A stretch of DNA of 64,000 nt from Polychytrium aggregatum (taxonomy: Eukaryota; Chytridiomycota; Chytridiomycetes; Polychytriales). A model generated the notes under the pieces. That model searched no databases, was not told the DNA's origin, and saw only the letters and a program-made list of their open reading frames with translations. Both the position numbers and the translations under genes were made by a program. Shown here piece after piece: positions 28,476 to 32,383 of the stretch. How positions within the stretch are numbered: the first letter of the stretch is position 1; every line of letters starts with the position of its first letter. Location of the stretch: assembly GCF_025602895.1 (NCBI RefSeq), contig NW_026516229.1, positions 372,001 through 436,000 on the forward strand, read 5' to 3'.

Positions 28476-28522
28476 GCGGACGGCCGATCACTCAGTGGAG
28501 CTACCACAGCAGAGGACATGTA

Positions 28523-28549
28523 CACTTTATTCAGAAAAAAAACGGGACA
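28523..28549 (+). repeat. Left terminal inverted repeat of the Fanzor element
   Basis: 27 bp starting CACTTTATTCAG, followed by eight A and CGGGACA. It pairs with the right repeat at 32131-32156 read on the minus strand. The outer TA at 28521-28522 is one copy of the presumed target duplication. On the minus strand this repeat contains AATAAA. Confidence 0.85.
28526..28531 (-). terminator. AATAAA inside the left terminal repeat, sense to Fanzor
   Basis: On the minus strand AATAAA ends only 3 bp from the edge of the element, 92 bp after the Fanzor stop codon. Cleavage usually falls 10-30 bp after the signal, so Fanzor transcripts should end in host flank (below 28523). Confidence 0.55.
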
Positions 28550-28622
28550 ATATAGCCGTTTCCATGAACAGGTAGTATGTGATGTGCTTGCGTCAAGCAA
28601 AGCCATAAGTAATACAATCAAA

Positions 28623-30995
28623 TCACTTTGGCAGCCTCCGAGTGAAGACCGCCGGTCGCTCTCCGATCTCCACAATCGACCTGCATACTGTGATCATGTT
28701 GCGCGCCGCATTGACGTCGCGATTCCACACTGTCCGGCAGCTGGGATTCTTGCAGCTCCTGACAAAGTGGGAATTCGCAACACTGGGCGCATCGAGTCCT
28801 TCCAACCGAACTGGCTCCAGGCACTTGGAGCACACCTGCGAGGTGTTGAACTCGTTCGTCGAGACTACCTTGACGCTTCCATGATGGTGATTGGGACGGC
28901 GTCGGTGGTGCTCGAATTGCTCAAAGTACCGAGCAAACCGCTGCCTCCGAGGGCTGGATGCATAGCCCTTGCCTTGTCGCCATGACGCATTGCCAAAGGC
29001 GATCACCACATCGGTCCGTATCGGGGCGTGCTTCAGGACCGACTTACACATCCTGTCGACGGCCACTTGGCGCCTCTTGTGGCCCGTGAATCGATGGTGA
29101 CGGGCCTTCTTGCCAAGGTGGAAGTCGAGCTGCACTCGCAGCTCCGGTCGCAGGACATGGGTGAGATGGACCTTGAAGGCCTCCGAGGACGACACCTTGG
29201 GCGAGGGAGTGGTCGACATCCAGGTCTCGATGCTGAGTCGATACTTCATGATATTGTGCCACTTGGTGTTGGACGTATGGCCACACATGTGCTGGTAGTG
29301 GCCATTGGAGAACGAGACCACCTCGTCTTGGTGGCCCGGTGCTTGGATGACCGCCGTGAAGATGGAGCCGACTCCAGGATCGATGCCAATCCAAGTGGTA
29401 CGGTTGGGGTCTGGGTCGCCGATGTGGGCCTGGATGCGCTGCTCGGCAGTCGGAGGAGGCTCGGAGGTCTCGGTGCGATCGGTTCGACGCACAAACTTGA
29501 CGAGACCGATGGTGCATCCAATGCCATCGGTGCTGATCTCGTAGTTGAACAGCTTGTGATTGATATCCCGGTCACGGAAGAGGGAACTACGCAGCTTGAA
29601 GCAACTGCGCCAGAGACGATCCTGGTTGTTGACACCGTCATCGCCTTCTTCCTTGAGCATGTCCCTGGTGAGGCCAAGGCGCTTCTTTGGACCCAGGAGA
29701 TTCCAAAGAGTGACCGTGTCAATCTTGACATACTTGGCCCTTGCAGTACAGAGAGGGACCATCGTGCACACGGCCGGAGGAGTGTCAAGAGCGAGCTGCT
29801 TGAGGGCCCACTTGATCCTGGAAGCCAGCTTGTTGATCTTGGCCTTGGTGGTGCCGAGCTCAGACTTGGCCTTGGTGAACCTCTTGTCGTCGGAGGGAAT
29901 GCCTCTGGCAGTGAGCTCGTCCAGCTTGGCCTGGCGCTGCAGCTCGGTGACTCGGAGGGCGGGCATGTCACAGTCGATCCACTTGTGGACATTGTCGACC
30001 ATCTTGTCCCGGGCGAGGATTCCCACATGGTGTGAGAGGCGATGGAGGGCCCGGAAGCGGTCCTGGTCGTTGCTGTACCGAAACTCGTCCAGGACGTGGC
30101 CAAAGTCCGGGTAGAGGAACTCGAGATCGGCCTTGGGTGGAGTCTGCCCTGGTTTCTCGAAGAGCTCGAGACAGGCCTCGATGGCTTCGTGCTTGTGCTT
30201 GTTGGCTGGGAAGACGGCAGCGCAGAAGCGGCGAAGGAGTCGCCAGTAGGCCAGGTCGAGGTGGGTGGTGCAGTTGGTGGCATAGGCATTGACAGCCAGT
30301 GTGAGAAGCTGACTGTGAGCACCATCAGGCAGACGAGGGGCCGGAGGCAGGTCTGCGTGCCGAGTGGACTGGTAGATGCCAAAGGAAGCGACCAGATGCT
30401 CGTTGTATTTCTCATTGTCCCCGGTCGGGGAGAGGGCACCGGCCTCGACAATCGTGAAGCATTGGCGGATGAAAGCAGGGGTGGACTTGGAGATGACGGG
30501 GACGGGAAGATCCTGCTCGATGCACCGGAGGATGTGCAGGTTGAGCAGCCTGGATGCCTCGAACTGGATCTGGGTCATGGCCTCGACGGTGGTCTGGATC
30601 TTGTCGCGGAGAGCGGGATTGAGACAACAGCCATCCATCGTCTGCTTGAAGCAGCTGAACTGAGGGGCGGATGACCTTCCATCCACGAGTGGGACGACGG
30701 AGCTCTTGAGGGGCCAGTATTTGGGACATTTGCTGGTGTTGCAACGTTCGTGATCGGTGCCGTCGCACTTGGGACATCGCTTGCCGGTACTCGAGGAAAT
30801 AGATGGACCAGGCTCGGTGGGATCGACATCCATTGGATCTGCAGAAGCAGTGGTGGTGAGCGACGGAGCAACAGACGAACAAGCATGCGTGGGATCAGAA
30901 TACGAACCAGAGACAGGCTCCGACTGTGACTTGGCTTTCTTGGGCCTGGGTGGCCGAGGCTGGCCATCACCGGTACCCTTGCGCTTCGGAGGCAT
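28623..30995 (-). CDS. Fanzor RNA-guided DNA endonuclease (TnpB/IS605-OrfB relative)
   Basis: Single uninterrupted frame of 790 codons, no intron seen, unlike the surrounding host genes. The N-terminus has clustered Lys/Arg (MPPKRKG and RPPRPKKAK), a likely nuclear localisation signal, then a compact Cys/His motif (C74, C77, H82, C85, C90). The helical middle region is presumably for guide RNA and target binding. The split RuvC nuclease has all three acidic residues: D539 in TWIGIDPGVGSIFTAV, E715 in VVSTNEFNTSQVCSKC and D760 in CRTVWNRDVNAARNM. A zinc ribbon (C722, C725, C748, C753) lies between the last two, as in TnpB. Other family features are RHHRFTGHKRRQVAVDR and VVIAFGNASWRQGKG. It is probably a Fanzor1-type protein, judging by its carrier. 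It lies 271 bp downstream of the transposase, same strand, with its own TATA box. Confidence 0.95.
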   Translation of the reverse strand: MPPKRKGTGDGQPRPPRPKKAKSQSEPVSGSYSDPTHACSSVAPSLTTTASADPMDVDPTEPGPSISSSTGKRCPKCDGTDHERCNTSKCPKYWPLKSSVVPLVDGRSSAPQFSCFKQTMDGCCLNPALRDKIQTTVEAMTQIQFEASRLLNLHILRCIEQDLPVPVISKSTPAFIRQCFTIVEAGALSPTGDNEKYNEHLVASFGIYQSTRHADLPPAPRLPDGAHSQLLTLAVNAYATNCTTHLDLAYWRLLRRFCAAVFPANKHKHEAIEACLELFEKPGQTPPKADLEFLYPDFGHVLDEFRYSNDQDRFRALHRLSHHVGILARDKMVDNVHKWIDCDMPALRVTELQRQAKLDELTARGIPSDDKRFTKAKSELGTTKAKINKLASRIKWALKQLALDTPPAVCTMVPLCTARAKYVKIDTVTLWNLLGPKKRLGLTRDMLKEEGDDGVNNQDRLWRSCFKLRSSLFRDRDINHKLFNYEISTDGIGCTIGLVKFVRRTDRTETSEPPPTAEQRIQAHIGDPDPNRTTWIGIDPGVGSIFTAVIQAPGHQDEVVSFSNGHYQHMCGHTSNTKWHNIMKYRLSIETWMSTTPSPKVSSSEAFKVHLTHVLRPELRVQLDFHLGKKARHHRFTGHKRRQVAVDRMCKSVLKHAPIRTDVVIAFGNASWRQGKGYASSPRRQRFARYFEQFEHHRRRPNHHHGSVKVVSTNEFNTSQVCSKCLEPVRLEGLDAPSVANSHFVRSCKNPSCRTVWNRDVNAARNMITVCRSIVEIGERPAVFTRRLPK

Positions 30996-31123
30996 GGGGA
31001 CAGAGGATGCTGGATGCCTGCCAGTGGTACTGGTCAGAGCAGAGACTTTTTTTATCGTACAATGGCGCGAATGATCAGATCAAGGCGAGATGAGGGAAGA
31101 AAGCAGCAGGACGAAGATGTGGC

Positions 31124-31130
31124 ATTTATA
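31124..31130 (-). promoter_or_regulatory. TATA box of the Fanzor gene
   Basis: Minus-strand TATAAAT in the context GGGTATAAATGCC, 129 bp upstream of the Fanzor ATG. It lies in the 271-bp gap between the transposase and Fanzor frames. It suggests Fanzor is transcribed from its own promoter and not only by read-through from the transposase. Confidence 0.6.
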
Positions 31131-31244
31131 CCCGAGAGCAGGAGCCCGTCTTTGCGGGCTGGTTGGGGAAGTGACCCTGTTCAAAAATCGCCGAGAGGTT
31201 CAAGCCAGGGATGTGAACGTGAAAATGGCGGCGTGATTGGGGAG

Positions 31245-31299
31245 CTCAACCCCAAATTGGAGGAACTCAACCCCAAATCGGTGGGGACTCAACCCCAAA
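31245..31299. repeat. Three 21-22 bp degenerate direct repeats at the transposase 3' end
   Basis: The 12-bp core ctcaaccccaaa occurs at 31245-31256, 31266-31277 and 31288-31299, with purine-rich spacers. On the minus strand this reads TTTGGGGTTGAG, a G-rich unit. The array starts inside the last codons of the transposase and supplies its stop codon, so it marks the junction between the transposase and the Fanzor part of the element. Confidence 0.85.
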
Positions 31300-32121
31300 G
31301 AAGTTCTCGATGGGATTGAAGTCGGGTGAAGCAGGTGGGGTGAAGATCACTGACCATCCTCGGCGCTCGATGCAGTCCAAGACAGCCATTGTCTTGTGCA
31401 TGCTGACATTGTCCATCACAATCACAGAGTCGTCTGGGAAGCTCGCTCGCTCAAAGAACTCGACCATCGAGTGTGTCTTGAATGATGTGGGGATGTACAT
31501 GCGATGCAGCACACCAGAGTGGTTGATGGCAAATGCAGCCGAGACAGACTTGTGTTTCATGTGATTGCGCTGACGGAGTGGGACGCCCTTCGGTGAGTAT
31601 CCGTAGAGAGGAAAAATGGATCTCCTGATCCCTGTCTCATCGACAAAAACGAATCGTCGTGGGTCAATGGAGCGGACCTGGTCCCTGAACTGTGCCACTC
31701 GCTCATCCAGTCGCTTGGACTTGTAGAGGTGTGTTGCCCTCTTGTGTGAGAGACCTGCTCGGTGGATGGCAGTGTGGCAGAGTGAGAGTGAAACTTTCCT
31801 CTGGAGAGTGGACTCGAGCATGCATCGCAACACAGGACCAGTCTGGAACGGATCCTGTTCAATCAGGGTGCGAATGACTGGACATGCCTGCTCGAAGAAA
31901 GTGGATCTGCGAGCTGTGACCCGGGATGGGTCATCCAGCTTGCATCCTCGGTGCCATCGATGGATGGTGCTCTTGGATACACTGAATATGGAGGCAACCT
32001 TACGCAGGCTATGGATGAGATCGTAGCATCGCAATGCGGCGGTGCGAAAGTCGGATGTGTGGCGAATGGTCATGGGCAGCGCGCGATAACATTGGGTAAC
32101 AAATATTCGATGAATGGTCAA
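31267..32121 (-). CDS. Tc1/mariner (IS630-type, DDE_3) transposase, short C-terminus
   Basis: 284 codons from the first ATG; a second in-frame ATG (codon 17, 32073) starts MTIRHTSDFRTAAL and is the more likely start, because the first lies 10 bp from the terminal repeat. An N-terminal helix-turn-helix (RKVASIFSVSKSTIHRWHRG) would bind the ends. The catalytic triad is complete: D161 in FVDETGI, D237 in SVIVMDNVSMHK and E272 in PDFNPIENFF, with 34 residues between the last two (DD34E). The protein stops only 12 residues after the catalytic Glu, where G-rich repeats begin; relatives usually continue for another 40-60 residues. It may therefore be shortened and of reduced or altered activity. It is sense to the Fanzor gene and upstream of it. 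Confidence 0.9.
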   Translation of the reverse strand: MTIHRIFVTQCYRALPMTIRHTSDFRTAALRCYDLIHSLRKVASIFSVSKSTIHRWHRGCKLDDPSRVTARRSTFFEQACPVIRTLIEQDPFQTGPVLRCMLESTLQRKVSLSLCHTAIHRAGLSHKRATHLYKSKRLDERVAQFRDQVRSIDPRRFVFVDETGIRRSIFPLYGYSPKGVPLRQRNHMKHKSVSAAFAINHSGVLHRMYIPTSFKTHSMVEFFERASFPDDSVIVMDNVSMHKTMAVLDCIERRGWSVIFTPPASPDFNPIENFFGVESPPIWG

Positions 32122-32130
32122 AATCCCGGG

Positions 32131-32156
32131 TGTCCCGTTTTTTATTGGATCGCCTG
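32131..32156 (-). repeat. Right terminal inverted repeat of the Fanzor element
   Basis: Read on the minus strand it begins CAGGCGATCCAAT and ends AAAAAACGGGACA, matching the left repeat at the tip and over its inner 13 bp. The TA at 32157-32158 is the second target-site copy. Confidence 0.85.
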
Positions 32157-32383
32157 TAAACAGTCGGTTACCAGTGCGCTGTCGGCAGTGGCTTGAGTCC
32201 CAATGCCAGGTACTAGATCAGCCCCAGTACCCACCTAGTTCCTTGCCCATGTCAACTGCGACTGAACAACTGCGACGCAGAATCGCATCTACAATTCCAA
32301 AAAGCTTCATTTCATAGAAGTGCGAGGGTCGACAGGCGTGAGAGTCGCGGCACCGGCCGCGAGACGCCTCTTTGGTCGGCCGC

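Follow-up and report, generated by a model that had tools for sequence, protein, structure and literature searches.

The window analysed here is a 64,000-nucleotide stretch of the Polychytrium aggregatum genome (contig NW_026516229.1, positions 372,001 to 436,000), held in an assembly of 64.7 Mb and 418 contigs. It contains a transposable element carrying a DD34E transposase frame and a gene assigned below to the Fanzor1 RNA-guided nucleases. The coding orientation of the element is that of the minus strand, so that its left end lies at 32156 and its right end at 28523. The features considered are as follows:

28523..32156, minus strand: whole element (3,634 bp), with ends common to 26 other near-full-length fetched copies
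32131..32156, minus strand: left-end inverted repeat CAGGCGATCCAATAAAAAACGGGACA, from the sequence and genome-wide pattern matches
28523..28549, plus strand: right-end inverted repeat CACTTTATTCAGAAAAAAAACGGGACA, from the sequence and genome-wide pattern matches
31267..32073, minus strand: short-form transposase frame of 268 aa counted from the ATG, or 284 aa if an upstream TTG is used, from a Pfam DDE_3 match and comparison with copy L031
31241..31304, no strand: three 21-bp tandem repeats around CTCAACCCCAAA, where the long form encodes the transposase C-terminus, from the sequence compared with L031
28623..30995, minus strand: Fanzor1 nuclease, 790 aa, from the frame, signature residues and a profile match to SpuFz1
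32157..32159, minus strand: TTA flank of the left end (TA of the target duplication plus the upstream T), predicted target-adjacent motif (TAM) of Fanzor, from flank counts and the SpuFz1 precedent
28523..28690, minus strand: 168 bp at the right end, made up of the final 68 nt of the Fanzor frame and the next 100 bp; predicted scaffold of the omega-RNA, present in 12 of 12 fetched gene-less derivatives
28501..28520, minus strand: flank adjoining the right end, starting CATGTCCTCTGC after the TA, predicted guide part of the omega-RNA, from its position and by analogy with SpuFz1

The two inverted ends have AAAAAACGGGACA in common (arms 28537-28549 and 32131-32143), and a TA is present at both outer edges, as a previous sequence-only reading of this locus had claimed and direct inspection of the window bore out. 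The outer sequences of the two ends are not identical. A search of the assembly for copies with the same ends identified at least 27 near-full-length copies, including that of the window, among the best 40 of 1,232 candidates scored; the other 26 were 95-97% identical, and the 27 fetched copies are those ranking nearest to the window copy. The boundaries proposed at 28523 and 32156 held across the other genome copies, with TA on the left in 36 of 36 unique insertion sites and on the right in 35 of 36. Copy L029, which has lost its left end, was excluded from this set, as were L014, L015, L022, L034 and L039, which have a 12-base flank identical to that of another copy; for L014 this applies to the left flank alone (identical to that of L007), and its site, which also has TTA, may be an independent one. 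The window element is a member of the Tc1/mariner (IS630) family, and its ends are correctly placed.

The family is large. Pattern searches of the genome returned 396 left ends (TA plus the family form of the left repeat, up to 3 mismatches) and 362 right ends (TA plus the outer 19 bases of the right repeat, up to 2 mismatches), and none with either reversed control. The transposase gave 137 scored matches (of 550 candidates), and 57 Fanzor frames spanning residues 1- or 2-790 were found among the rows scored from 1,274 candidates, 44 of them free of stops, in a ranking that favours good copies. The proposal that the element is young was rejected for this sample, since copies at different sites were at most 97.0% identical, the mean over all pairs was 95.9%, and the 27 fetched copies thus stand about 4% apart. 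The pairs L010/L015 and L020/L022 had equal 12-base flanks on both sides, with identities of 98.3% and 99.6%, and were probably duplicated after insertion.

The Fanzor frame had been described in the sequence-only reading as a 790-codon frame with all RuvC acids and four zinc cysteines, and this was confirmed: the RuvC triad consists of D539 (in IDPG), E715 and D760, and the zinc ribbon of C722, C725, C748 and C753. The published Fanzor1 signature, D-X(125,275)-[TS][TS]XX-C4 zinc finger-X(5,50)-RD, as given in the description of Bao and Jurka (PMC3627910), is present in the window protein as D539, T718-S719, the four cysteines and R759-D760. Further Fanzor1 features are a DPG motif and a conserved G and E (G500 and E536 of SPu-1-1p); G668, E715 and D539-P540-G541 were invariant in an alignment of the window protein with two relatives (P0003 and P0004, 32% and 30% identical to it), and we read G668 and E715 as the likely counterparts of the SPu-1-1p residues. 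Of the solved structures, SpuFz1 (8gkh) was the best match to a profile built from these three sequences (E 5.3e-9, covering the RuvC domain and zinc ribbon), with lower matches to TnpB-like L79 (E 1.2e-6) and Guillardia Fanzor1 (E 0.2 only). In the profile alignment, E715 and D760 fell on the EYKTSSVC and WNRD stretches of SpuFz1 and D539 on IDP; the metal ligands of SpuFz1 named in the account of Saito et al. are E541, D383, N385 and D606 (PMC10432273). The window protein alone gave no significant match to solved structures (best E 0.4, LaTranC), and a protein-database search gave no match with the whole protein or with the three-sequence alignment; residues 530-790 retrieved four relatives. 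Taken together, the residues and the profile support the assignment to Fanzor1. The N-terminus contains a Cys/His-rich stretch (CPKC..DH..C..KCP, residues ~73-93, window 30717-30779, minus strand), with a similar stretch in P0003, which is possibly an extra zinc-binding module. Two of the retrieved Fanzor relatives, P0001 and P0002, are recorded as P. aggregatum proteins. The gene model of P0001, which is named for male sterility, starts with a Fanzor C-terminus; the related gene family has at least 19 matches in the assembly that are 92-96% identical across residues 540-806, and further ones at 59-70%. Among the listed matches of P0001 to the assembly none reached 100%, the best being 98% over 65 residues and 96% over 267.

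The transposase frame matched Pfam DDE_3 (E 4.6e-21), and its N-terminus matched HTH_23 weakly (E 0.0024, below the cut-off of that model). The DD34E residues reported previously are present (D145, D221 and E256, numbered from the ATG), but the frame is truncated and lacks its C-terminus: it ends in NPIENFFGVESPPIWG, 12 residues after the catalytic glutamate, where a long form has 54. This long form, found on contig C101 in copy L031, is 310 aa long when counted from the same ATG and scores 119 bits on the NCBI IS630 model (cut-off 100); it continues for 50 residues after NPIENFFG, and in the window copy 8 residues take the place of these last 50. The 21-bp repeats at 31241-31304 are the probable scar of a deletion at this point. 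We therefore rejected the notion of an intact transposase, and with it that of an "apparently intact" element; the window copy does not appear to be an intact autonomous Tc1/mariner element, and its transposase may well be inactive, to judge from the missing residues. All 27 fetched copies carry the short form (frame stretch 778-808 bp). In a search with an IS630 profile, 71 of the 107 rows scored (of 359 candidates) extended at least to profile position 277; the other 36, including that of the window, ended at 269-270. The short form, too, has spread, and we suggest that such copies are mobilised in trans by the transposase of long-form copies. In L031, one element unites the 310-aa transposase with a Fanzor frame free of interruptions.

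Left and right ends were paired over part of the genome, with 72 of the 206 TTA left ends and 4 of the 10 left ends lacking TTA (see below) as input, together with 100 of the 362 right ends, up to contig C113. A listed right end was found for 59 of the 76 left ends, 47 of the resulting elements being long enough for both genes and 12 being short; sizes were ~280-380 bp (9 elements), ~1.1 kb (3), ~3.4-3.66 kb (24) and ~3.7-3.8 kb (23), these spans exceeding the true length by 4 to 12 bases, with exact lengths computed for the short elements. The 12 short derivatives all retain 168 bp or more of the right end and between 96 and 662 bp of the left end, which leaves none of them with either the transposase or the Fanzor frame complete. 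Only a few types of deletion are represented among them, and the number of independent events is accordingly small. No element with a transposase alone was seen among the 59. Over the 27 fetched copies, the last 100 bp at the right end diverged from the consensus by 1.4%, as against 3.1% for the intergenic stretch and 4.8% for third positions of Fanzor; the first 60 bp at the left end diverged by 2.4%. The position of the right-end segment and its conservation lead us to predict that it is the source of an omega-RNA, for which the flank beyond the right end would provide the guide.

The clearest regularity of the insertion sites is confined to one side. In the coding orientation, the base before the left TA was T in 206 of 216 left ends matched by the same degenerate pattern and another base in 10. 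Among the 36 unique sites, T was present at position -3 in 35 and the mirror-image A at +3 in only 3 (Fisher 1.3e-15), the right side being TA followed by any base. There was a slight excess of A/T at position -4 (p 0.008) and of A at +4 (p 0.002), both values being uncorrected for the 34 positions tested; apart from these two positions, the TAs and the T, none had p <0.05. The 10 exceptions (4.6%), two of which represent one duplicated site (L033/L034), are close to what later mutation would give at 2-4% divergence from the consensus. The insertion of L011 lies in a dispersed repeat, all seven fetched paralogues of which read straight through with a single TA; the upstream T was already there, and it is therefore part of the target rather than of the element. 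The empty site proposed earlier as a check was thus found, in paralogous form, for L011, but none was obtained for the window copy. The search for empty sites of the 36 insertions (40 of 251 candidates scored) yielded mostly rows of the L011 repeat, so the lack of empty sites for the window copy and others says little. The IS630-profile rows, also screened for sister Tc1 families devoid of Fanzor, had scores and frame lengths fitting the window's own family, and a related terminal inverted repeat (TIR) used as a control gave 9 matches with T, A and G at -3 in 5, 2 and 2 cases, too few to use, both G rows being right ends of the window's own family. In the published account of SpuFz1, the left inverted repeat is preceded by a conserved CA at Fanzor and ghost loci alike, and CATA is the experimentally tested TAM (PMC10432273). 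Because of this precedent, in which CA and TA together form the TAM, we predict that TTA is the TAM of the window Fanzor.

The two genes differ in how well their frames have been kept. In 25 of the 27 fetched copies (L015 and L022 being left out of the indel and codon counts), we counted nine indel events in the 807 bp of the transposase, each private to one copy, and none in the 2,373 bp of Fanzor (p 4e-6). In Fanzor, the ratio of nonsynonymous to synonymous changes relative to neutral expectation (omega) was 0.55 among singletons and 0.36-0.39 among shared changes; the corresponding values in the transposase were 0.80 and 0.25-0.30. Changes creating stops in Fanzor occurred at about 0.4 of expectation or less.

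By analogy with TnpB and SpuFz1, we consider it reasonably probable that this family, with its DD34E transposase and Fanzor1, gains retention or copying from cutting of the empty TTA site by a Fanzor guided from the right end. Long-form copies would supply the transposase in trans, and the element would be cut and pasted into a TA. Fanzor would bind an omega-RNA read from the right end of the element, with the adjoining flank as guide and the TTA of the left flank as TAM. For the window copy, TTA followed by the sequence at 28501..28520 would be the original target. TTA plus the right flank corresponds to the exact empty site, and Fanzor should therefore cut this site on the empty sister or homologue; repair from the filled copy would restore the element or copy it into the cut site. 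In this manner, the family could keep and multiply elements that would disappear if they depended on cut-and-paste transposition only. The sequence data agree with such right-end-guided homing but do not prove it.

Several observations weigh against this reading. Secondary structure with covariation was rejected as support for the omega-RNA, since the predicted fold of the right end was weak (z -1.8 for 170 nt and 0.25 for 122 nt) and no two-sided compensatory change was detected in 48 pairs. Seventeen of the 76 left ends were unpaired, and no recent pair was present among the sampled copies at different sites, so that present activity is unproven. The copy on C101 with both genes uninterrupted is flanked by ATA and is thus one of the 10 exceptions. 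The Fanzor frame is protected but not perfect, because 6 of the 25 unique copies contain a premature stop, as do 13 of the 57 scored frames; moreover, two of these 57 span 2,367 and 2,364 nt rather than 2,370 (small in-frame deletions). Finally, the T at -3 could reflect the specificity of the transposase itself.

This last point leads to the principal alternative, in which the one-sided TTA is a target preference of a transposase acting on unlike ends, Fanzor has adopted TTA as its TAM or ignores it, and the benefit of Fanzor is not homing. A T so nearly fixed is more simply explained by a requirement of integration than by later selection, and the differing outer sequences of the two ends would allow oriented integration. 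TTA is also present at 9 of the 10 unique sites of derivatives in which neither gene is complete, which can be counted in favour of a transposase preference, although it fits action in trans as well and does not discriminate between the two models. Against this explanation, the target choice of Tc1/mariner elements is known to be TA alone. Furthermore, the left-flank letters of SpuFz1 are tied to a tested TAM, and a transposase preference leaves the indel-free Fanzor frames of 25 copies unexplained. We regard this alternative as unlikely, albeit one that deserves attention.

Some copies adjoin related elements. The 3' flank of L030 and the flanks of L009, L010, L023 and L038 indicated copies inserted exactly beside the TIR-like ends of related elements, these ends having GGGACA or a near form of it in or near the same register. 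The right-end pattern followed by GGGACA in the left-TIR register had 17 genome matches (up to 1 mismatch; 8 exact), as against 1 for the reversed control, but there are identical sequences among the 17, and several rows with one mismatch do not resemble TIRs. The neighbour of L030 is apparently a complete small ghost element, with a piece of the Fanzor C-terminus and a right-end block GCTTGACGCATGCCATCACATACTAC near that of the window family. The left-end tip of L023, CAGTAGATC, departs from the family consensus and equals the tip of the neighbouring element, as though recombination or conversion with that element had replaced it. If an omega-RNA is made, the predicted guides of copies abutting a neighbour would match the neighbour's end. 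A Fanzor drawing its guides from numerous copies and ghosts might cut mainly other elements, in a competition between transposon families, and less often its own empty sites. This explanation is favoured by the copies that immediately adjoin a related ghost's end, since their predicted guides would correspond to the end of that family. Nevertheless, we judge that a neighbour of this kind lies to the right of only about 5 of the 36 unique sites (the five copies named above), and the adjacency may be driven by the transposase; we consider this explanation improbable. To the suggestion that Fanzor is an idle passenger, its intact frames reflecting a recent burst from a few masters, we give hardly any credence: singletons are partly relaxed and premature stops occur, but the sampled copies are not recent, the nine indel events of the transposase have no counterpart in Fanzor, and both shared nonsynonymous changes and stop-creating changes fall well below expectation.

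A stronger version of the homing reading would hold that the persistence of each copy depends on Fanzor rather than on the transposase, that copies settle at TTA alone because no other site allows Fanzor to re-cut the empty site and the element to be copied back, and that guides adjoining ghosts steer the family to ghost ends, the whole constituting RNA-guided homing laid over a cut-and-paste transposon; we put this forward as a speculation that we consider unlikely. The sequence-only reading had presented the window element as a young, possibly working unit combining insertion with guided cutting. This is not supported for the window copy, because the last 50 residues of its transposase have been lost and the copies are about 4% apart, but it stands as an idea about the family, because the long-form copy on C101 has the 310-aa transposase and an uninterrupted Fanzor.

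The closest known systems are the SPu-1/SpuFz1 elements of Spizellomyces punctatus, described by Bao and Jurka in 2013 (PMC3627910) and Saito et al. in 2023 (PMC10432273). As presented in these accounts, they share with the window family a chytrid Fanzor1 with aligned catalytic residues, a TA duplication, TIRs and ghost copies that keep the right end, the 12 short derivatives found here paralleling the ghost loci of S. punctatus. The letters before the left end are conserved in both, as CA plus TA in SPu-1/SpuFz1 and as T plus TA in the window family. The portions of the accounts describing SPu-1 give it a length of ~2.1 kb and report no transposase between the inverted repeats, whereas the window family has a DD34E transposase gene in the same element; likewise, SpuFz1 has 633 aa and the window Fanzor 790 aa, and the TAM is CATA in the former and predicted to be TTA in the latter. 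The presence of a Fanzor1 within a transposase-bearing Mariner element is already known, from the description of PGv-1 and PUl-1 (PMC3627910), which resemble the window element in having a Mariner-like transposase and a Fanzor1 in one element with a TA duplication. However, PGv-1 is described there as single-copy, whereas copies and ends of the window family number in the dozens to hundreds and include derivatives, and these supply statistics on target sites and selection. Titles and abstract openings revealed no paper on the window family, in a search that left subscription journals mostly outside. The proposed logic of a right-end RNA, a left-flank TAM and cutting of the empty site is that of TnpB in IS200/IS605 and IS607 elements, but these are prokaryotic and use HUH or serine transposases, whereas the window family has a DDE cut-and-paste transposase. 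The benefit of Fanzor to its carriers was described as unknown in the account of its 2023 characterisation (PMC10432273). The earlier suggestion that the window element would be a good model for this role applies better still to the family, with its unusually good statistics: one genome combines a whole two-gene long-form copy, numerous copies whose transposase is truncated, derivatives without genes, the empty L011 sites and TTA at nearly all counted left ends. A single protein, a single RNA and a single transposase would suffice for direct tests of the predicted TAM and of the choice between homing and passenger.

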